Assembly (NCBI GenBank): GCA_963971405.1
Contig: OZ020484.1
Span: 8,060,001-8,124,000, forward strand
Length of the DNA stretch: 64,000 nt
Origin: Psococerastis gibbosa
Lineage: Eukaryota; Arthropoda; Insecta; Psocodea; Psocidae
Direction: 5' to 3'
The notes beneath the pieces were generated by a model. That model had not been told where the DNA came from and ran no database searches. It saw only the letters and a program-made list of their open reading frames with translations. Positions 2,916-46,930 of this stretch are shown piece by piece. The stretch's first letter is position 1. The number at the start of each line of letters is the position of its first letter. The position numbers and the translations under genes were made by a program.

Positions 2916-3763
2916 CCTTTCCAATTTATACGTAGTATAACGAAAGCTTTGTGATGGTCCAAATTTTCGATGCCAAGATTTCAACGGATTTACACGTTTT
3001 AAGGTCCCAGGAACCCAAAAAAGTGGTTTTTACGAAATGTCTGTCTGTCTATCTGTTCATCAATTTCCGGGCAAACTACTCGGTCGATTTTGATGAAATT
3101 CGGCATGTTTCATAAAAATCATACCTCGGGATGATTTTTTTTTTTTTTTTGGGGCTAACTCAATTTGGGGGGGTTTTATTCTCAAAAAAACTCCAAAAAA
3201 ACGTCTAAAAAAATTATTTCCCAAAAACGGCTCCAACGATTTCTTTTAAGTTCACATATATTGTAGTTGATATTAATGTTGATAAAATGCGGGGGGTCGC
3301 TTGCCCCTTGATAGTTTGCTTCTGGGGGTAAAAAAATGAAAATAACTAAATTTCAATGAAAAATGATTAAAAATTAATTTTTCTGTGAAACCTTTCCATC
3401 GATGATTTCTACCTTCAGGCATGTTTTAGGTGTTAAATTGAGTAACGAAACCGGACAGATTGCTTTCATAAAAAACTATTTGGTTTTGTGCAAAATTTTT
3501 TTTTTTTGAAAAATGATAGAAAATTCAAGGTCAAATGCATTGCGTGCCCTGCCATATTGTTGTGTGGTAATTTGTTGGTCTGATCTATCTAGAATTTACC
3601 TCTCCTCCAGTGACGTCAGGTGGGCAACCCCCCCCCCCCCCCCCCCCCGAGTTGCCCGAAGTTTAACTATAGGAAAATTATTTACCATGAAATTACTCAT
3701 TTTCTCTAGCCACTACTTGATAAATTGGAAAGCATGTTCGAGTAAACACGGACCGGTTCTTTG
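2916..3763 (+). mobile_element. Family A inverted-repeat element, copy 1
   Basis: This is the first of at least seven copies of an element of about 850 bp. It opens with CCTTTCCAATTTATACGTAG and closes with ATAAATTGGAAAGCATG followed by a GGACCGGTTCTTT border, so its ends are inverted. Internal landmarks are a CTGTCTGTCT microsatellite, a GCAAACTACTCGGTCGATTT block, a long C-tract (here 3,628-3,648) about 110 bp from the right end, and a CAGTGACGTCAGGTG motif. There is no coding potential, so it is a non-autonomous DNA element by inference. Confidence 0.8.
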
Positions 3764-5420: not shown

Positions 5421-5534
5421 CATAAGTAGGCCTAGGTGCATATAAAGTCCTTCAGGACATTATTTCTACTACTACACCTGTGGTTATGGTATTGAGCTGG
5501 TCCCTAGAGAGAGACCTGCAGGATAATCATCTAG

Positions 5535-5657
5535 GATGACGATTCATCTCCATCATTCATGTAGCAGTCAATTCGTCCACTTCCTCAACCCATCTTATTG
5601 GACTCCTGATCGCCTTCTCCGTCATCATCACCGCCAAGCAGCTTGTCCGCATCCCCC
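5535..5657 (+). pseudogene. Oldest decayed copy of innexin first-exon sequence
   Basis: The stretch CGCCTTCTCCGTCATCATCA, then CCGCCAAGCAGCTTGTCCGC, aligns with codons of the intact innexin exon around 7,247-7,282 (AFSVIITANQFVGNP). The preceding bases align more loosely with the codons for FRLHNVFTTVLL. It is the most diverged member of the array running to 7,072. Confidence 0.55.
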
Positions 5658-5659
5658 AA

Positions 5660-5830
5660 ATTAACTCATAGCACGTAGGCTTTGATATTATGGGCCAGTG
5701 ATCCGTCAGCATGTTCTAGCTTGTCGGAGATCTCCAGGAGTTTAGCAAATGGCAGATGGCAGGACATCAACACAGTCTTCCGCCTCAACAACGATCTATC
5801 CTCTCGGTCAGCATAAACGTCAACCAGTTC
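5660..5830 (+). pseudogene. Tandem pseudo-exon copy 1 of ogre exon 1
   Basis: The unit contains the 5' leader (ATATTATGGGCCAGTGATC), the start codon (5,711-5,713) and about 45 codons of the intact exon at 7,139. The reading frame is broken at the third codon (TAG at 5,717). It shares with copies 2-4 a deletion that removes most of the VFTTVLLMAF codons. It ends at AACCAGTTC, where the Penelope-like fragment begins. Confidence 0.85.
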
Positions 5831-6598
5831 CACCCCAAGACGTACTATTCTGGAGATAGGAAGAAACAACGGGTACCAGGAAGGCGACACAGAAAGGATC
5901 CTAAGGAAACATGAACTCAAGAGCTTAGCACGGATGGTGTACGCAGGACAAGACGTTACCAAGGAGAACAAGCAGTATGCCAAGATCCCGTTCATAGGAG
6001 AAGTCAGCATGAAAGTAGGAAGACTAATAACCCGAACCACTAACAAAGTTGTATCCTTTAGCTGCCCGCCCAACTTAGGAAAATTCCTCATCAACTGTAA
6101 GGATAAGGTTAATAATAATAGGAAATCAGGGGTTTATAAAATTTCTTGTAATGAATGTAGTGCGAGTTACATTGGACAGAGTGGACGCAATTTTAAGTTT
6201 CGCTTACGTGAGCATAAAAATGCGATCGGTAAAAATGACTGTACCTCAGCTTTTGCGGACCACCTCTCAAGTAACTCGCACTCATGTAATTTTGAAGATT
6301 TTAAAATTCTACATTGTTGTAGTAAAGGTAGACTATTATACAGGTTAGAAAGCTTAGAGATTAGAAAGGCTATTAGGAATAACGAGGTTCTCACGAATGA
6401 TATAATGTTTCAAACTGTATCCCCACTACTCGATTTATGTACTCAACCCCCGCCTCCTCCTCCCACTCCCTTCCCGTAGTATATAAGCTGGCGTTTTTTC
6501 ATGTGTTGTTAGTCTGATGATGGATTTTATCCGAAACCGGTCACTATTAAAGTATTTTACTGTGGATCATTGCGTTCTTCTTCCTCTACTCATGATAT
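5831..6598 (+). mobile_element. Penelope-like retroelement, C-terminal GIY-YIG fragment
   Basis: An open frame runs from about 5,840 to the stop at 6,477-6,479. It begins with an RT-to-endonuclease linker (an NGY motif near 5,873; IPFIGEVSMKVGRLI at about 5,968-6,012), followed by the GIY-YIG nuclease: KSGVYKISCNECSASYIGQS, then RLREHKNAI and an HLSSNSHSC block. This order is characteristic of Penelope-like elements. The 3' UTR carries CTGATGATGG and CCGAAACCGGTCAC. The copy is 5'-truncated (no reverse transcriptase palm) and lies between pseudo-exon copies 1 and 2. The last roughly 210 codons are undamaged, so the insertion may be fairly young. Confidence 0.88.
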
Positions 6599-6600
6599 CC

Positions 6601-6777
6601 TAAATTAACTAAGCACGTAGGCTTTGTTGCAGATATTATGGGCCAGTGATCTAGCTTGTCGGAGATCTCCAGGAGGTTAGCAAATGGCAGATGGCAGGAC
6701 ATCAACACAGTTTTCCTCCTCAACAACGATCTATCCTCTCGGTCAGCATAAACGTCAACCAGTTCGTCGGCAACCCC
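6601..6777 (+). pseudogene. Tandem pseudo-exon copy 2 of ogre exon 1
   Basis: It includes the intron end with an acceptor-like CTTTGTTGCAG, the leader ATATTATGGGCCAGTGAT, and exon sequence through CAGTTCGTCGGCAACCCC. It has lost the CCGTCAGCATGTT segment that holds the start codon, so it cannot initiate like the parent. The end at CAACCCC is shared with the other copies and marks the duplication breakpoint. Confidence 0.85.
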
Positions 6778-6955
6778 TAAATTAACTTATAGCACGTAGG
6801 CTTTGTTGCAGATATTATGGGCCAGTGATCCGTCAGCATGTTCTAGCTTGTCGGAGATCTCCAGGAGTTTAGCAAATGGCAGATGGCAGGACATCAACAC
6901 AGTCTTCTGTTTCAACAACGATCTATCCTCTCGGTCAGCATAAACGTCAACCAGT
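6778..6955 (+). pseudogene. Tandem pseudo-exon copy 3 of ogre exon 1
   Basis: A TTAACTTATAG junction leads into a CTTTGTTGCAG acceptor, the leader, a start codon at 6,838-6,840 and an early TAG at 6,844. It is nearly identical to copy 1 through the following 100 bases, including the shared internal deletion. The array therefore expanded after the first copy had already broken. Confidence 0.85.
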
Positions 6956-7072
6956 TCTAGCTTCTCAGAGGCCTCCAAGAGTTGAATAAATGGCAGGACA
7001 TCAACACAGTCTTCCGTCTCCACAACGATCTCTCCTCTCGGTCAGCATAACCGCCAACCATCGGCAACCCCC
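6956..7072 (+). pseudogene. Tandem pseudo-exon copy 4, 5'-truncated
   Basis: It lacks the leader and start codon and begins at AGCTTCTCAGAGGCCTCCAA. AATGGCAGGACATC and AACCATCGGCAACCCC match the parent exon, and it carries the common internal deletion. It is slightly closer to the intact exon than copies 1-3 in places (no ATGGCAG duplication) and directly abuts the functional exon unit. Confidence 0.8.
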
Positions 7073-7100
7073 AGCTCTTCAACATAACTCATAGCCATTA

Positions 7101-7112
7101 AATTTGTTACAG
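7101..7112 (+). promoter_or_regulatory. Likely splice acceptor before the ogre start codon
   Basis: AATTTGTTACAG followed by AT fits an insect acceptor and implies an upstream non-coding first exon that I cannot locate. The equivalent site is kept as TTTGTTGCAG in pseudo-exon copies 2 and 3. Confidence 0.55.
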
Positions 7113-7117
7113 ATATT

Positions 7118-7129
7118 ATGGGCCAGTGA
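7118..7129 (+). promoter_or_regulatory. Minimal upstream ORF (Met-Gly-Gln-stop)
   Basis: ATGGGCCAGTGA lies in the inferred 5' leader, nine bases before the innexin start codon at 7,139. If transcribed as inferred, scanning ribosomes would meet it first. The same four codons are preserved in pseudo-exon copies 1, 2 and 3. A regulatory effect is inference only. Confidence 0.45.
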
Positions 7130-7138
7130 TCGGTCAGC

Positions 7139-7501
7139 ATGTACAAGCTTCTCGGAGGTCTCAAGGACTTCATAAAATGGCAGGACATAAAGACCGACAA
7201 CGCGGTCTTCCGCCTGCACAACGTCTTCACGACAGTCCTCCTCATGGCGTTCTCGGTCATCATAACCGCCAACCAGTTCGTCGGCAACCCCATCAGCTGT
7301 TTGGTGAAGGGAGCGCCCTCGCACCCCGTAAACACCTTCTGCTGGATCACCTCCACCTTTACCATGCCTGACGCGCACTTCAGGAAGGCAGGCTCGGAGG
7401 TGGCGCACCCTGGCGTCGGGCCTGAGTTCTACGACGGGGAGGAAGGGGATCGCAGGTATCATAGCTACTACCAGTGGGTCTGCTTCGCCCTGTTTTTCCA
7501 G
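7139..7501 (+). CDS. ogre: ogre coding exon 1 (residues 1-121)
   Basis: It covers the cytoplasmic N-terminus, TM1, extracellular loop 1 with both cysteines, and the start of TM2. It ends on a complete codon (CAG for Gln121) before the donor GTACGT. Its last 100 bases are very similar in nucleotide sequence to the same part of gene 2 exon 1, including at silent positions. Confidence 0.95.
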
Positions 7502-10500
7502 GTACGTCTATTCTACTACAGTTAGATATATCTAGTAGTATTTACACGCTTGTAATGTTTTCTGTTTAAATTGTGAATGGTCCAGTTGGTGAAGAACTGG
7601 ACTATGAAATGGGAGTTCCAGGTTCGAAACTCGATGTACATGAATTTTTTTTAGGCCGGAGCTGAGTCTATCCATTTCAACCCCAATGGGTATCTTCATT
7701 GATAGAGAAAAACCACGATCCAAATCGAGGGGTGGTCAAGAGACCAGGCTACCACCATATTATAGTCTAGATAGACCTTCTTTATTCTTATAACACTTAT
7801 AGTTGTAAATTATGTAGTAGATTATAAAGCGACTATCTGAAACCATTCGTCCAACCTTAAACGACGTTATTTATTTATGTGTCTATTAGATAATATCAAT
7901 GAAGTCGATCGTCTACATTGAGACAATGGTTTTTGGATATTGAGATTATGGTTAAAAGTCTGATGTTAAGATTTGGTGAGGTAGATGGTCGATTTGTGTT
8001 GGTTTGTGTTCCACCTGATCTGCGGTTGCCGAGATCATTTGTTCCCGTCAGTGATCAGATTCGACACGTAAGGTCACCGCAAACTATAATTTTTCAGTAA
8101 CACCTTGAAGCTTCAATTTAGCCTATGTTTTCCTGGTGTTCTTATTGTCTTATAGTTTTTTTTTTCTCGAAAATGTAACCAAGCGCATAAGACTTGTGGT
8201 TCTATAGCGTGCATTTCAAACTTAGCAAAACAAACAGCATGATAACCTTTTCGCTCCTGAAGGTTAAGAAATTACTTTAAATACTCAAGGGCGACCAGAG
8301 CCTGGGACGGATCCAAGCCATTTGGGGGGGGGGGGGGAGTAGTTGTGGGTATAATAGAACAAACATGTAATAATATGTAATTAGCGTAATAAATTAATTT
8401 ACAATAGATTTACTAAATGTAAATCTACCCCCATGCGTTTGTTTTCCAACACCTGCGGTCCTATTATGTCGTTCAGTATTAACCTAGTCCTGGGGTTAAA
8501 GATGAAAAAAAAAAACATTTTCTAAATAAGTTGCTACTAAGCCTACCAGATACAATAGTAGAGGTCTGCGCAGTGCCACTGAGGATGTGGCCCTCAAATG
8601 TTGCCGAAACGTTTGGGGAAGTAAGGTTTCTGATCATCAACCCGAATTAGATTCTACTGCTTCATCATGGTTATTTAACATTTTAACAAAGGGTAAGTTG
8701 GGCATACATGTGTCATTAAATTAGGTACTACTCCAATCAGGACTGCGCCTGGCAATGAGGCCCATCTTAATTGTTCGATGACTTTGAGGCCCTTGCCTCT
8801 AATGACAATTAACACAGCAGACAATGTAATACCTGACCAAGATGGGAAGACATTTGGAACACTTATAAAAATCGAATAAACTCGCGGTGTTATGCAAGTT
8901 TTTGAATAAACAAAGTGTTCCAAATGTCAACCTATCGTGGGCAGGTAGTTAGTCCAACTATCCCTTTGTTAAATAACAGAGCACCATTGCCAATAACCTT
9001 TACCAATAGTCCATCTGTGCATGCTTAAGAGTGTAAAAGCTTGTCAATACGGCAGATTTAATATTTTAAGTCATTTTGCGTGCGATGGCGTCATCAGGGA
9101 ATAACTGTCATCTGAGTAAGCAACAGGGTCGGAATAAGGCTTAGAATTAGACCTACAGTATGATGCGGGTCGGTTGTCGGTGCTAATATCGGCTCATGGC
9201 CACATCTGTTCGTATATTACTTAGTGCTATACGACATCAGGGCCCCAAATGGCAACTCACCAGATTTTTTTTATGGTCTATAATTCATTTGCCGTTGGTT
9301 TTAGCTGGCTTTTATTGTGCGGGCGTGCTCATAAGCTATATAAGTTATTTAAAAAATTCTCCACGTTGGTCGTGCTTTTCGCTATACAGCTTTCATTATA
9401 TATTCGCTAATTTCTACATCCTCCTTTAAACGTTTCAATCGTTTAATAGTACCTTATTACTATTTTGGGGGTGGGGGGAGAGGGGGGGGGGGTTCGGGCC
9501 CCTGGACCCCCCCCCCGTCCCTCTGGCTACGATCTTATTACTAATTATATTGTTGGCAAGTGCAAATGTAGCTAGGCTGGACCGGTAGTTGGTCCCAAGG
9601 TGCATTTTGAGCATGCGGAACTTAAGTTTCCCTAGGGTGAGGTTGTCAGGTGGTTGGGTTTTGGTCCGCCCCTGGTATTTTACTTCCGGTATGGCGGGTA
9701 TGCATTATAGCGCCATGGCCCAGCCGAGCCGTCCGTGAGGCGGGTGACGTCCAATGGCGGATCCACAGGGGTGTCACGAGGGTCATGACCTTCAAAAACA
9801 ACAAAAGACATGTAGCGTGGTGGTACGGACTCTGACTTTCACCCGAAAGGTTGTTGGTTCGAGTCCCAAACTGGCTACATTTTCTGGCCATGCTTCAGAG
9901 GGCTTGTAGTAGTAGTAGTGTTAGTCGGGTTAAAAACGACTTAGGCCTCATATTTGGGCCCATAGAGCGACCCCGACTTGACTGTCCTATGCCAGCCCAT
10001 AGGACAGTGGACCTCCTGATTATAGTGGATTCCGAACCACTTGGGAAACACAGTGAAGTCACACGATTAGTTCGGAGGTGACCAGGACAAGTCCTACCAT
10101 GTTTCCCTACCGGCAGTGTGCACACGACCAAGTTATCTGCAGCTTTGAACCTGCTCTGGTCCGCTGGATTCAACTTGGCATGGCGGCCGGCTGCGGGCAT
10201 GTAAAGCAGGCGGTCCCGGGTCTTTCTAGTTGAGTGTATAGCCCTAACTCCGCTAGGTTGGCTGAGTAATAGAAGCAACAAAAAGTCCTTATTTATTTAT
10301 TTAAAATAAAATGTTAAAAACTTATAATATACAGACTGCACCCACACATGCAACTTGTGACCCTCTCCGCTGTGTCCGCCCTTGGGTACTCCCCCCAGCT
10401 TATTTGGACGCTGAAAGTTTGATAAAAATCAGGAAAACAAAGTTACCTATGTCTTAGAACTTGGACATAATAATTTTTTGACATGCGGGTTATCTATAGG

Positions 10501-13282: not shown

Positions 13283-16200
13283 GACATTTTGAGACATTAT
13301 GCAGTATGTGACGGTCACTATCACGGATTGGTCACAATTGTCTGAATTGATGAGTATAAAAACGGCTGGTAAGGCGTGCAGACGTCATTATTGTATATGT
13401 ATATCAATTCTGGCGATTGTAGCCAATCGGTGCTAGTGATGGCCACATAGCATGTATCAAAATGTCGAGAAATATTTGTTTTAGCGTCTAAAATGTTTTT
13501 TCTAGTTCTAAAATAAATTTTTACTGCGAAATTTGACTATATGATGTGATTTTGTCCCTTACCCAATCTGCTAGGTACCCGTAGTCTGCTGGTGTAATTT
13601 AAAGAAGAAAAAAAAAACATTATTTATTTAATGGGCCCAAAATTCGCCCATATAGAAAAATAAAGACAATTTTCTTTCTTTCTTTCTTATGGCCGTAACT
13701 ATCGGTTTATCTCAACAGTAGTTTTGGAACTTGTTTTCTTTGGAAACCGGAAACCGGCTAGTAGCCAGGCCAAGTAGGCACATTCAAACATGTCACAAAT
13801 TAAAATTGTTTCACATATTACGGGAACAACACCATTGTTCCTTTAAAAATATATATGGGGGGCATCCATGCATGACCTCTTCTTCACTAATTGGAAGTTT
13901 AAATAAAGTGCTGTAGGTCTACTGCCAGGTTCCAGTAAGCCCTAAACTAACTTACACAGAAGACGACAAGTAGATCCGGAATAGTAAAAAAAACTTTCAA
14001 AGATCCAGAAAAGGAATGGAATAAAAAATATAGAACACTTCTTCATCCTAATTCCTCTAACTGCTCTACGTTTGAAATTTCCGGTAAAATGTGGCATTTT
14101 TTCAAATTATAGACAAGGGCCTATAGGGGAGGGGGGGGGGGGCGCTTAAACTTGCGTTTTTGCGTAGACAGTGAGCAAACAAAGTTTTATCTTTAGGTAC
14201 AGGACAGCCACAACTAGGTACATTAGCCTGCTAATTGTTTTGTCTAGGATATTAAAAGTTAGATATTTCCATGCAGTTGTGGTCACGTGAGAGATAGAAC
14301 ACGCTCATGTTAATTATGGCACCGCTGCCTGCCTACTGTTGCAGAAATGTTGTATGAATAGGTGGCACAATTGTCTGGACGGCATGAGTGGCATTTCATG
14401 GCTGAACGAGTCCATTGTCGCCCTGCTGGTAGCCTAAGAAACAATCTGACACACCACTGTCCTTTTTTGAATAAATGAAATGAAAAGAAATGAAAACTAC
14501 TTTATTGACAACTCAAAGGGTGAACAATTAGACTATTAAGTCTTGTTTGACGTGCTAACCCTAAAGAGATTATATTCTACGAATACATTAATTAAAATTA
14601 CAACGAGAGAAAAGAAAAAAATCCTATTACAATGGAAAGATGATCTTAGAGCCATAAATGAGGGGTCATAGAGATTGAACAAGAGGAAGAAGGAATATTG
14701 CTCTGCAGTCTACATTTTATATACAGTATTTAAATAAATAAATAATGAGTTTTTATTATATTATTAAGCCAGCGTAGTGGAGTTAGGGCTATATTTATAT
14801 ATTTATACTTATACTTGCTTTTACTCTTTTTTCGCTTTTATCCCTTGGTGGGGTCAGCGATACGGCAGCTTCCCTTCCAGTCCTTGCGATTCTGCGCTTC
14901 GGCTGCAGCTGCTCCTACAATTCAGAGGTGTTGACGAGACTTCGTTTCTACTGTTAACCTGGGCCGGCCTCGTCTTCTTTTTCCCTCAGCTTTGATATGT
15001 TTCATCCGCTTCATCAGGTCATCTGGCTGCCTTCTTTCGACAAGGCTCCACCATGACAGTCGGCGTTGACGGGCTTTATTGACTATGCCAGGTGTCTTCA
15101 TTTCTGCTCTTATTTCGTCGTTTCAGCGTCTACCACCTAGTCGGTCGTCGCAGCATCCGCATCTCGGCCACATTGCAGTCTTTGTTCCCGTCACTCTGAG
15201 CCATACAACGTGCTAGGCATTTATTTATACATATATTGTGTAACTATTTATTTCTTGATTTGCAGGCGTTGGCGTGCTATGTACCCAAGTGTCTGTGGGA
15301 CGCGTGGGAGGGCGATCTGCTGCGGACAATCATCATGGGACTGAACGTGGGCTGCTGCCACGAGAACGAGAAGAAGCACAAGAAGAGGGTCCTCCTAGAC
15401 TACCTGAGGAGCCACGAGGGCGTGAGTAACTACGCTTTGTTTATCACTGCAGGACCAGCGTAGATCCTGGTTTCGAATCCCGTTCTACCAGTTTTTTCTT
15501 CTCGATTTCCTATTTTGGATATAATTATTTCTTTACTAAGCCAATTTAAGGCGGAGATCCCCAAAAATTTTGTAGGGTTCATATATAGGCTGTGATTATA
15601 AATATTAATATTTTGTAAACAAAGAATGCGCCTTTTTGAAGATTAATTTCTCCTTCCCCAGCCGCTACTGTATAAAAATGCTATTATGGAAAATTTGTAA
15701 ATAATAGAAGATTTCTAAAGAGCAGACTATTTACCCCGCGGATACTAATGCGCTGTTTCGTGTTTTCCAGTGTAATAAAACTGTACCTTTATAACGTGAA
15801 AATTTTGAGGGGGGGGGGGTAAAGACCTACATCCTCCTTATACTTACCCAAATTATGGACGCTGGCCCTTTGCGTGCCAACTATGACGATTAGTATTACC
15901 TTAAAAATGTTATTCTCAAGGTTAAAAATAATAAACAATGCAATTTTGAATAGCTCTTGCCTCTTCCCATTACTTGTAGGGATTTACAACCACGGCCGTC
16001 TTCTAACTTTCCCAGAGAAACGCTGCGGTGTGGTTATATACCCCTCCAAGTAGGTAGAGGTCAACTTATAATATGATTGTTTGCAGCGTGCAACAAGGGT
16101 ACATCCTGCGACCGTAAAATAGGGGAATGGACTTAAACATACAATATTCAATGTAGTACAGGAGCAAAGCAGGCATCTGTGTCCTAGAATCTAGAATATG

Positions 16201-20500: not shown

Positions 20501-22702
20501 TGTTTGTACTTAACATATCCCATGACGCCATTTTTTAATTTTAGTTTGTTTGTGATTTTACTGTATGATCATTGATCAATTTTAACTATGGCATAGAGGA
20601 AAATAAACATTTCCGTCAATTCTGCAGTGCGAGGTCGGTGGAAACCCCGCCTAAGTCTTGAATGTCTGCTACCACGTCACTGTTTTTGTAAATAGCCCTA
20701 GCCGGTCGGTGGAATGGGCGCCTTACAACAACTCATTTGCAACTAATCTCCCAGCGAATCACTGGCGTTGGAATCGTCTGTGTGTAGCAGCACTGTTGCC
20801 TGAAAAGTCCCCGGTCACGAACAATTTAAGTTCCTCGAGTAAAAATAATTAATGAAATAAATAAATAACCATTTATTTGCAGACAGACCTAAAAGTCCAA
20901 TAAAATGCAAATATTATACAGAAAATTTGAGTACCTATTTAGGTAATGCGTCAGCATTTATGCCAATAATCTGCGTGGCGCTGTGCCTCGTCAATGGACC
21001 ACTTGCGTATAGGAAAGTGTTTGCGCCCCCCCCCCCCCCTCAGATTATAAGGCCAACCAATCCAAATAGTCGGTTTTGACGTCATTTCTCTATGGCTCCA
21101 ATTATATTTCTTTCTTTTCGTGTTCGAGGTAGAGATTCCTAGTTTTTTGGTCCAGCATTCTGGCAACCTGACGTCAAGTATAAATATAGCCCATAAATTG
21201 CATTTCCGATTTTTATACTGTTCCTCATGTAGAAGTTTAGCAACTGAGGGTGTCTTGAATGTCACACAAATAATTTGTCTCATTTTATTTGCAGCGGCAC
21301 AAGGCGTACGCACTGCGGTACTTCTTCTGTGAGGCGCTGTGTCTCGTCAACATTATCGTCCAGCTGTACCTCATGAACAAGTTCTTCGACGGCGAGTTCT
21401 TCAACTACGGGCTGCGCGTCATGAACTTCACGGACGTGCCGCAAGAGCGCCGGTTTGACCCGATGGTGTACGTGTTCCCGCGCGTCACCAAGTGCACCTT
21501 CCGCAAGTATGGTCCCACGGGCACCATAGAGACTCTGGACGCTATGTGTGTGCTGCCGCTCAATATTGTCAACGAGAAGACCTACGTGTTTTTATGGTGA
21601 GTGACAAAATTCATTTAACAAAGGGCTTTTTTGGACTTACTTACTTTAGGACATATTGATCCAAAATATTGTTGCCTGGATGGCCTTGTCATTGGCATCT
21701 GAGAGATCTGTCTGAGACACAGCTTCTTGGACTTCCATTGCCTGCTGTGTTAATAGTCATAAGAGGCAGGGACCTCACACTTATCGAACATTTAGTGCTG
21801 ATGGGATAAGCAAGCAGGCCCCGACCTTGGGATTTCGCCGCCTTTGGCAGCTAGTCTTCCAGCGCCCCCTACCTCATTAAAACAAAATGTTACGAACGGA
21901 TATTGTAAGAAATACGACCAAAGTATAAGGGGGTAAACTTCTTCTTCTGGCTCGACAGCCCTTGATGAGCTTCCTCGACAACACTCCTCCAGTCATCTCG
22001 GTTTTGTACAATTCTCCACCATCTACGGACTCCCAACTCCCGATGGTCAGTTTCCAATTCATCCTTCCAGCGTTTTTGAGGACGTCCGGCCAATCGTCTT
22101 CGTGTCATTCTTGCTTTGTACATCTTTTTCGGCATGACATTCCAACGACGTGTCCCAGCCAGCGTATGCGTTGCGCTTTTATGAGCCGGACTAAGTCTTC
22201 TCCGTGGAGTATTGCGTCTATTTCGGCGTTATTTCTTATATGGCACTCTCCGTCTTCGCCTAGGTGTCCATAGATCCTCCGTATTATCTTTCTTTCCAAT
22301 ACTCGCAGTTTGTTTGCATCATTAACAGTCCCTCTCTCGCCATAGTAGTATTGCAACAGTCTTTAAGGCGCACTAACTACAGAATGTAAGTAGCCTAAGA
22401 ACATCTAGCTAGACGTTTTCATTAAAATGACAATCTATGGTGATTTCAGGTTCTGGTACATAATTCTGGCAGCAATGCTGACCGGCCTGGCCATCTACCG
22501 AGTCACCATACTGGCATGGCCTGCCGTCCGGCCGTTCTTGCTACACAGGCGAAACCGCATGGTGCCCTTCGACATATCGCGAGCTGTCTGCCAGAAGATC
22601 GACGTGGGCGACTGGTATCTAATATACATGCTCGGCCGTAATATGGACCCGCACATCTTCAAAGAAGTCATCAGCGAAATGTACAAGAACGACGGCTCGT
22701 GA
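7139..22702 (+). CDS. ogre: Innexin-1 (ogre), four-exon gene
   Basis: Gap-junction channel subunit of the plasma membrane; hexamers of innexins dock between cells and pass ions and small molecules. Coding exons are 7139-7501, 15266-15421, 21295-21596 and 22450-22702, giving 357 residues against about 362 for Drosophila Ogre. All splice sites are GT-AG and the phases are 0, 0, 2. Seen in the protein: an N-terminus MYKLLGGLKD, TM1 at about 27-44, loop-1 cysteines C54 and C68, the YYQWV signature at 110-114 leading TM2, TM3 at about 183-203, loop-2 cysteines C240 and C258 with FPRVTKC and NIVNEKTYVF, TM4 at about 273-297, and a short C-tail containing GDWYLIYMLGRNMDP. The start is chosen because it gives the conserved Ogre N-terminus. 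The start region is duplicated as pseudo-exons just upstream. Assignment as ogre/Inx1 is by recalled family similarity and is strong. Confidence 0.95.
7575..7650 (+). repeat. tRNA-like SINE head fragment
   Basis: GTCCAGTTGGTGAAG resembles an A box, and AGGTTCGAAACTC a B box, with about the right spacing. There is no cloverleaf I can close, so this is a tRNA-derived retroposon head rather than a tRNA gene. Confidence 0.35.
8306..8420 (+). repeat. GGATCC/poly-G dispersed repeat, copy 1
   Basis: GACGGATCCAAGCC precedes a G-tract (about 8,324-8,337) and then GTAGTTGTGG, ATAGAACAAACA and TTTACAATAGATTTACTA blocks. The same blocks in the same order recur at 40,866-40,985. Confidence 0.65.
8560..8660 (+). 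repeat. Retroelement 3'-end-like fragment
   Basis: ACTGAGGATGTGG followed by GTTGCCGAAACGTTTGG resembles the GATGATG...CCGAAAC 3' region seen in the Penelope-like fragment at 6,518-6,545. ATTCTACTGCTTCATCAT recurs near 26,818. It is too short to classify. Confidence 0.35.
8676..8850 (-). repeat. Dispersed repeat shared with ogre intron 3
   Basis: In reverse this segment (for example GTGTTAATTGTCATTAGAGG) matches 21,742-21,800 (GTGTTAATAGTCATAAGAGG and the following bases). A CATTTAACAAAGGG block is also common to both loci. The family is unknown. Confidence 0.5.
9808..10302 (+). mobile_element. tRNA-derived SINE, long form
   Basis: The head has an A-box-like TAGCGTGGTGGTACGG and a consensus B box GGTTCGAGTCC (9,856-9,866), as in RNA polymerase III promoters. 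A unique body of about 400 bp follows. The 3' end reads CAACAAAAAGTCCTTATTTA plus ATTTA repeats. Shorter copies at 19,793, 25,887 and 38,559 share the head and/or tail but lack about 290 bp of the body. Confidence 0.85.
10710..10900 (+). repeat. Dispersed repeat shared with 58,945-59,105
   Basis: GTTGTGGTCGGGAAAATAAT, a TAGCGTAGGTAGCATAG block and GGCCAGAGTCGAAAGGGAT all recur as reverse complement at about 58,945-59,105. It is non-coding and of unknown family. Confidence 0.6.
11136..11566. repeat. MITE with GGCTATTCCACTTGTC termini
   Basis: Left end GGCTATTCCACTTGTCAATT and right end AATTGACAAGTGGAATAGCC are exact inverted repeats and the arms run further inward. The core contains TTAAAATTGATCAATAG and AACAATGGCGTCGTC, resembling the core of the 380-bp elements at 20,343 and 44,747. 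A half copy lies at 39,275-39,420. Confidence 0.8.
13200..13700. repeat. Homopolymer tracts and short shared repeats
   Basis: A C-tract near 13,219-13,229 is followed by 28 T (13,251-13,278). The block TGTAGCCAATCGGTGCTAGT near 13,420 recurs diverged at 28,215-28,240. AATTCGCCCATATAGAAAAA plus a CTTT repeat (13,650-13,690) recurs near 42,318-42,358, probably a retroposon tail. Confidence 0.4.
14820..15230 (-). pseudogene. LINE ORF C-terminal tail in ogre intron 1
   Basis: The minus strand reads ERRQPDDLMKRMKHIKAEGK, then RRRGRPRLTVETKSR, a stop, and AQNRKDWKGSCRIADPTKG. This RRGRP...NRKDW...CRIADP pattern is typical of the last segment of non-LTR retrotransposon ORFs. Stops and frameshifts show it is dead. 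It ends just upstream of exon 2 and is antisense to ogre. Confidence 0.65.
15266..15421 (+). CDS. ogre: ogre coding exon 2 (residues 122-173)
   Basis: It starts after acceptor TTGATTTGCAG with ALACYVPK, finishing TM2, and continues into the cytoplasmic loop with a Lys/Glu-rich stretch (ENEKKHKKR). It ends with SHEG on a whole codon before donor GTGAGT. The length of 52 residues matches the equivalent part of insect Ogre. Confidence 0.93.
16623..17472 (+). mobile_element. Family A inverted-repeat element, copy 2
   Basis: Full-length copy with TTGCTTTCCAATTTATACGT on the left and ATAAATTGGAAAGCATG on the right, plus the border GACCGGTTT. It carries a G-tract at 16,865-16,882 and a run of 23 C at 17,334-17,356. 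A stretch of 30 T follows just downstream (17,556-17,585). Confidence 0.85.
18525..18960 (+). repeat. Tandem repeat array, units of about 75-135 bp
   Basis: CATTGTCTGAAAGCTTCG starts units at about 18,525, 18,599, 18,675 and 18,810. The first two are 74-76 bp. The last two gain a TATAAGACTGCCTGTA block and are about 135 bp. Each keeps AGTAAAATGGTTGCCTA and ATGCGGTTATT. No coding potential. Confidence 0.85.
19035..19100 (-). repeat. tRNA-like B-box fragment
   Basis: On the minus strand GGGTTCGAATCCCGCC contains a perfect B box, preceded by GTCCACTACGGC. No A box of normal spacing or acceptor-stem pairing is evident, so it is read as a retroposon head remnant. Confidence 0.35.
19793..19996 (-). 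mobile_element. tRNA-derived SINE, short form, copy 1
   Basis: The reverse complement has the same head (A and B boxes) and the same tail as the 9,808 element but lacks about 290 bp of body. The join is at GAGGGCATGTA, the same junction as in the 25,887 and 38,559 copies. Confidence 0.85.
20343..20722. mobile_element. 380-bp MITE, TTA target duplication, copy 1
   Basis: Long inverted repeats of over 100 bp start GGCGCCCATTCCACCGACCG and end CGGTCGGTGGAATGGGCGCC. TTA flanks both sides (20,340-20,342 and 20,723-20,725). TWA duplications are usual for PIF/Harbinger elements. Inside each arm a second GGTGGCGTTTCCACCGACCT motif echoes the terminus. Confidence 0.88.
21295..21596 (+). CDS. ogre: ogre coding exon 3 (residues 174-274)
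   Basis: After acceptor TTATTTGCAG it opens with RHKAYALRYFF and covers TM3 and the second extracellular loop (C240, C258). It ends inside the Trp274 codon (TG|G), giving phase 2. The donor is GTGAGT at 21,597. Confidence 0.95.
21597..22449 (+). other. ogre intron 3 (853 bp)
   Basis: It contains the dispersed repeat at about 21,742-21,800 that matches 8,676-8,850, and an antisense LINE tail at 21,890-22,356 filling most of the intron. The acceptor is TGATTTCAG at 22,441-22,449. Confidence 0.85.
21890..22356 (-). pseudogene. LINE ORF C-terminal fragment inside ogre intron 3
   Basis: Two minus-strand frames join by a frameshift near 22,110-22,135. The first includes LRVLERKIIRRIYGHLGEDG and RIRWLGHVVGMS. 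The second includes RRRLAGRPQKRWKDELETD and DDWRSVVEEAHQGL. Order and motifs match the C-terminus of non-LTR retrotransposon polyproteins (WLGHV, GRPxKRW, DDWR). It is inserted antisense to ogre and is inactive. Confidence 0.75.
22450..22702 (+). CDS. ogre: ogre coding exon 4 (residues 275-357 and stop)
   Basis: It completes Trp274 and gives FWYIILAAMLTG (TM4), then the cytoplasmic tail with RRNRMVPFDISRAV and GDWYLIYMLGRNMDPHIFKE, ending KNDGS and TGA at 22,700-22,702. Confidence 0.95.
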
Positions 22703-46391: not shown

Positions 46392-46595
46392 CTGGAAAGC
46401 GGAACTGTCCGTACCACATGGAGTTGCCAGATTTACAAAACATAAAAACCGGACAGGGAGTCATGGGCCATTCAATATATAGTGTAAATTATTCTAAAAA
46501 AAACTCTATCATTTTATCTAGTCTTCTGGTGACAAAGATGTTGATAGTCAGTGATAGCTTTAATCGATGGTACAATCTGAACTGTACTGCCTGCA

Positions 46596-46930
46596 AAATG
46601 CGCAAAACCTCACTAATTTGGGCCTATTTATCAATTTTCCTTCTCCGGGGGAGACCCCCGGCCCCCCTTTCTCCGGGGTTTAATTTGCGTTAAACCTCAC
46701 TAATTTGGGCCTATTTATCCATTTTTTCTCCGGGGTGACCCCCGGGCCCCCCTTCGTCTGAGTTGCAGTATGCGTAAAACCTCACTAATTTGGGCCCATT
46801 CATCTCTTTTTTTTCTCCAGGGGAGACCCCCGGGCGCCCCTTTCTCCAGGGGATAAAGTGCTTAAAACCTCACTAATTTGGGCCTAATTATCAATTTTTT
46901 TTCTCCAGGGGATGGAAGTCTTGGAGTCCT
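46596..46930 (+). repeat. GC-rich tandem array upstream of gene 2
   Basis: Four units of about 85-88 bp start with AAACCTCACTAATTTGGGCC at about 46,604, 46,692, 46,776 and 46,864, each followed by a CTCCGGGGGAGACCCCCGG-type palindrome. The reverse complement of this unit resembles the units of the 48,508-48,935 array. Confidence 0.88.

Follow-up and report, generated by a model that had tools for sequence, protein, structure and literature searches.

The first coding exon of an innexin gene of Psococerastis gibbosa, which we take to be ogre, is directly preceded by a real array of four partial copies of its own 5' edge and a 54-bp older remnant, arranged head to tail at positions 5,603-7,079 of the window (the whole 64,000-nucleotide stretch analyzed, C1:8,060,001-8,124,000). 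We put a probability of about 0.82 on the array being non-functional, left behind by local tandem duplications that recur at the background rate of this genome. It looks like a genuine and well-preserved case of a known process rather than a new kind of gene control; read in this way, it is a legible fossil in which a short tandem duplication decays, re-amplifies and takes a transposon hit beside a working exon.

The genome comprises 409 Mb, and a profile search placed 26 of its 33 innexin matches at C1:7.95-8.26 Mb; the innexins here presumably resemble those of arthropods. In the window, PF00876 was detected at 7,196-7,549, 15,248-15,445, 21,280-21,615 and 22,445-22,690. The last three matches are probably later exons of the gene starting at 7,139, so that the domain of this ogre-type innexin would extend over several exons of one gene. 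The intact exon (7,139-7,501) is presumably the one from which the gene works. Its leader follows an AG at 7,111-7,112 and contains one upstream ORF of 3 codons (ATG at 7,118). In two paralog exons (window 47,521 and L022:3,791), a 33-nt leader comes after TGTGTTGCAG; from just 5' of the TGTGTTGCAG site to the ATG these exons agree at every position, and further upstream they diverge, which supports the AG before the working exon's leader as the putative acceptor of a 5' UTR intron. A further tandem array of the window, its period being about 88 bp, lies at 46,592-46,912; the second innexin start codon (47,521) follows about 600 bp downstream. Elsewhere in the cluster, the innexin genes at L028:2431 and L029:2256 have a single 363-codon open frame with nearly the whole domain, and their neighbours are split into exons. 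The features of the array locus are as follows.

5,603-5,656, forward strand: unit 0, older exon remnant of about codons 34-51 that lacks the second shared deletion (54 bp at 81%, E 1e-8)
5,657-5,837, forward strand: unit 1, leader, ATG TTC TAG and broken first codons, preceded by an intron end that has lost its acceptor (BLASTN, alignment)
5,838-6,596, forward strand: candidate Penelope-like element, 5'-truncated, inserted at the unit 1/2 boundary (97-99% identity to nine copies; PF01541, E 7e-5)
6,599-6,777, forward strand: unit 2, acceptor-like site at 6,631-6,632, leader, ATG removed by a 13-bp deletion (BLASTN, alignment)
6,779-6,957, forward strand: unit 3, acceptor-like site at 6,810-6,811, leader, ATG TTC TAG (BLASTN, alignment)
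6,958-7,079, forward strand: unit 4, beginning within the coding part, with acceptor, leader and ATG gone (BLASTN, alignment)
7,113-7,138, forward strand: leader of the working exon, 26 nt
7,139-7,501, forward strand: working first coding exon of the ogre-like innexin (PF00876, E 1.3e-31; frame open over 121 codons)

A preliminary description of this locus had claimed four units and an older one similar to the exon, and alignment bore this out. A BLASTN search of the window with the exon region matched 5,603-5,656 (81%), 5,657-5,830 (69% with gaps; the similarity of unit 1 to the exon stops at 5,830), 6,623-6,777 (67%), 6,783-6,957 (70%) and 6,946-7,079 (67%), with E values from 1e-8 to 7e-23. 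Scored against the 5' part of the exon, units 0, 1, 2, 3 and 4 reached 51, 92, 77, 94 and 65 bits, versus 25 bits for the best of 200 mononucleotide shuffles and 21 bits for the best match elsewhere in the window with the paralog exon removed. The interval originally given for the array, 5,535-7,138, needs correction: the units lie within 5,603-7,079, the Penelope-like stretch had gone unnamed, and 5,535-5,602 has no significant similarity to the exon by BLASTN within the window. Likewise, the units repeat the acceptor, leader and start codon only in part, since unit 1 has no acceptor, unit 2 no ATG and unit 4 none of the three. The same kind of junction, CCCC(C/T)AAATTAACT, occurs between units 0 and 1 and between units 2 and 3. 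As in a tandem partial exon duplication, part of an exon with its flanking intron is repeated head to tail next to the parent, and the copies are disabled, units 1-3 being free of coding constraint.

The lesions of the units indicate in which state they were multiplied. Units 1-4 share two deletions, one of 9 bp and one of about 20 bp (a net loss of 19), and not the single one described earlier. Unit 0 lacks the second, and its 54 bp do not span the site of the first; both paralog exons are full length where units 1-4 carry the deletions. Units 1 and 3 have a stop at codon 3, and unit 4 is without a 7-bp duplication carried by units 1-3. Pairwise differences amounted to 5/159 (units 1 and 2), 4/173 (1 and 3) and 7/164 (2 and 3), to 13/105, 16/114 and 14/105 between unit 4 and units 1, 2 and 3, respectively, and to 17/112, 19/119, 20/112 and 14/113 between the exon coding part and units 1, 2, 3 and 4. 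Given that the deletions are common to units 1-4, and that units 1-3 are 2-4% apart from one another and 15-18% from the exon coding part, the earlier suggestion that an already broken copy was amplified is supported.

About half of the interval 5,535-7,138 is taken up by the insertion at 5,838-6,596, which is 97-99% identical to the nine other genomic copies compared. A genome search with the element gave 878 candidates, of which 40 were scored, and at least 67 matches. Its frame contains a GIY-YIG endonuclease region (PF01541, E 7e-5), the score of 23.5 bits being barely above the cut-off of 22.6. A GIY-YIG domain together with a repetitive nature presumably identifies a Penelope-like element, and the features of 5,838-6,596 point to a truncated member of this class. 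Inspection by eye recognised no clean target-site duplication around it.

The following course of events would account for these observations. A stretch of about 180 bp would have been duplicated head to tail; it ran from the end of the 5' UTR intron through the leader to about codon 51 of the ogre-like exon, and the complete exon remained as the 3'-most copy. One upstream copy would then have lost 9 and about 20 bp and drifted, and this drifted copy may later have multiplied again, through unequal crossing-over or slippage, to give units 1-3. Losses in individual units would have come later, and the Penelope-like element would have landed where units 1 and 2 meet. Unequal crossing-over is a plausible mechanism, one not separable here from replication slippage.

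Differences from the exon were counted by codon position and found evenly spread in units 1-3, with no codon-position bias: 6/38, 6/37 and 5/37 in unit 1, 7/40, 6/39 and 6/40 in unit 2, and 8/38, 6/37 and 6/37 in unit 3. Unit 4 leans to third positions (4/38, 2/38 and 8/37). The leaders of units 1, 2 and 3 differ from that of the exon at 1/26, 0/18 and 1/26 positions. They show less divergence than the intron part (units 1, 2 and 3: p 0.011, 0.064 and 0.016); compared with the coding part, the excess of conservation is not significant (p 0.20, 0.08 and 0.13), and constraint on the leader was rejected on this comparison.

The preliminary description had correctly noted that units 2 and 3 keep acceptor-like sites and the leader, and from this it had derived a possible role for them as splice decoys or alternative leader exons. 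The little-changed acceptor and leader of these units do count against reading the array as debris, since a functional leader would look alike. One alternative is that units 2 and 3 serve as alternative acceptors, whereby a long leader rich in upstream ORFs would lower or tune translation; duplication debris would then have been turned into translational control. The acceptor-like ends, TTTGTTGCAG, and the leaders preserved in both units favor this, as does the similar TGTGTTGCAG that precedes the leaders of two paralogs. However, both units have a further AG (GTAG) about 12 nt 5' of the acceptor, and their leaders are not significantly better conserved than their coding parts. By computation, splicing to unit 2 would retain 6,633-7,112 and yield a leader of 506 nt with 9 upstream ATGs, and splicing to unit 3 would retain 6,812-7,112 and yield 327 nt with 6, compared with 1 ATG in the 26-nt leader; no upstream ORF in either long leader overlaps the main start. 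Among the three donor motifs scored in 6,633-7,112, AGGT occurs once, and GTAAG and GTGAG are absent. Alternative or variable first exons have a donor that joins them to common exons, and no unit reaches the donor at 7,501/7,502. With their coding parts dead and evenly struck, their leader conservation not significant and 6-9 upstream ATGs in the resulting leaders, a leader or decoy role for the units is possible and unsupported, and regulation through these acceptors is unlikely.

Unit 0 deserves separate consideration. Its frame is open over 18 codons, and its 10 differences from the exon are distributed 2/1/7 over the three codon positions (18 sites each, p 0.011). Together with the absence of the second shared deletion, this favors a view in which the array arose not from the present exon but from the remains of an earlier functional exon or gene copy, with unit 0 as its relic. 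However, a mere 54 bp are left of unit 0, and its third-position pattern may reflect either a coding past or synonymous change in the exon that still works, which would yield the same distribution. We regard such an origin as very unlikely.

The array had also been presented as having no described equivalent among innexins. It is not singular even within its own genome. At L023 (C1:8,248,000-8,254,000), broken copies of the start of another innexin exon lie directly upstream of it in the layout of the ogre array: 3,197-3,297 (70%) and 3,304-3,438 (65%) match 3,485-3,589, in an array beginning near 2,694. At L026:3765-4159, the end of an innexin exon and its donor region are repeated twice downstream (88% and 73%), the donor context being changed in the second copy, and at L027:2288-2796 an innexin exon piece is repeated downstream, two of the copies (82% and 77%) having an 18-bp deletion in common and the donor kept. 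Outside the innexins, a GPCR exon piece with its donor forms about six tandem copies at L044 (C14:38,988,000-38,990,500; 745-1753), at 745, 937, 1,136, 1,328, 1,523 and partly 1,698, with a step of roughly 190-200 bp.

Local duplications touch 4/25 innexin exons (25 exons or ORFs, namely 24 of the 33 profile matches and one further exon), 1/16 SNF-transporter exons (16 of 92 SNF matches) and 42/400 random 280-bp segments from ten control loci, a rough background figure since the 400 draws overlap one another. Enrichment of arrays at innexin exons was not found (4/25 vs 42/400, binomial p 0.26), the ogre exon that prompted the comparison being itself one of the four positives. About one random segment in ten of this genome thus lies in a local duplication, so gene prediction here will be misled by partial copies of exons.

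Periods were compared among the arrays of three sets of sequence: the cluster and its surroundings (14 arrays, 123,510 bases), L030 (1 array, 6,001 bases) and loci elsewhere (15 arrays, 130,016 bases). The locus L044, picked for its repeated exon matches, was excluded from all array counts, and L040 (C12:20,000,001-20,010,000), ten kilobases of satellite with a unit of 166-167 bp, from both the array and the random-segment counts. Periods of 125-185 bp were found in 9/14, 1/1 and 3/15 arrays, respectively, and a nucleosome-length step as a genome-wide rule was rejected on the last figure; a period bias specific to the cluster is compatible with these counts. A broader proposal appears highly improbable to us. 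It would have a duplication process of the innexin cluster, with a near-nucleosome-length step, recopy exon edges time and again, and the acceptors surviving in the ogre array serve as an inbuilt means of switching to a leader with many upstream ORFs.

That the units persist because they carry promoter or enhancer sequence is barely credible: their position immediately 5' of the exon and the leader block they retain speak for it, but no test in this analysis points to such an activity, and copies of the same layout occur at the background rate. Equally hard to credit is an assembly artefact; misassembly of tandem repeats can happen, but these copies differ in substitutions and in indels of their own, and a retroelement interrupts the array. 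Spread of the units by a mobile element was rejected, own-genome searches (queries 6,590-7,138 and 5,480-5,837; very common words skipped) having found them at the array locus only, and so was descent from another innexin, the ogre exon being, outside the array, the best match of every unit in the window and L022-L032.

Among the papers listed by literature searches, no title or abstract opening dealt with broken first-exon arrays in innexins. Related processes are already in print, and the array, here read as residue of local duplication, fits a known process. In Drosophila, tandem duplication of coding sequence with proto-splice sites has been described (Lehmann et al. 2010, PMC2891723), and there, as here, short regional duplications take in splice signals in or beside coding exons; in the Drosophila case one copy turns into an intron, whereas the copies here are broken, sit 5' of the exon and are putative splicing targets. 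Ivanov and Pervouchine (2022, PMC9013439) aligned exons to the genes that contain them, detected tandem exon duplications in this way and found unannotated copies adjoining the parent to be widespread, UTRs included; their approach asks for expression of the copies, whereas the pieces here are disabled and known from sequence alone. The UGT1 variable first-exon cluster (PMC1885805) likewise contains tandem first exons, some of them pseudogenes or relics, but several working first exons are joined there to constant exons, whereas here one works and the rest are fragments. Finally, tandem duplications capturing gene parts in Drosophila yakuba (PMC5460883) resemble the present array in that partial-gene duplication leads to altered gene structures; in that study the change in expression was measured, whereas the ogre array is characterized by its DNA.
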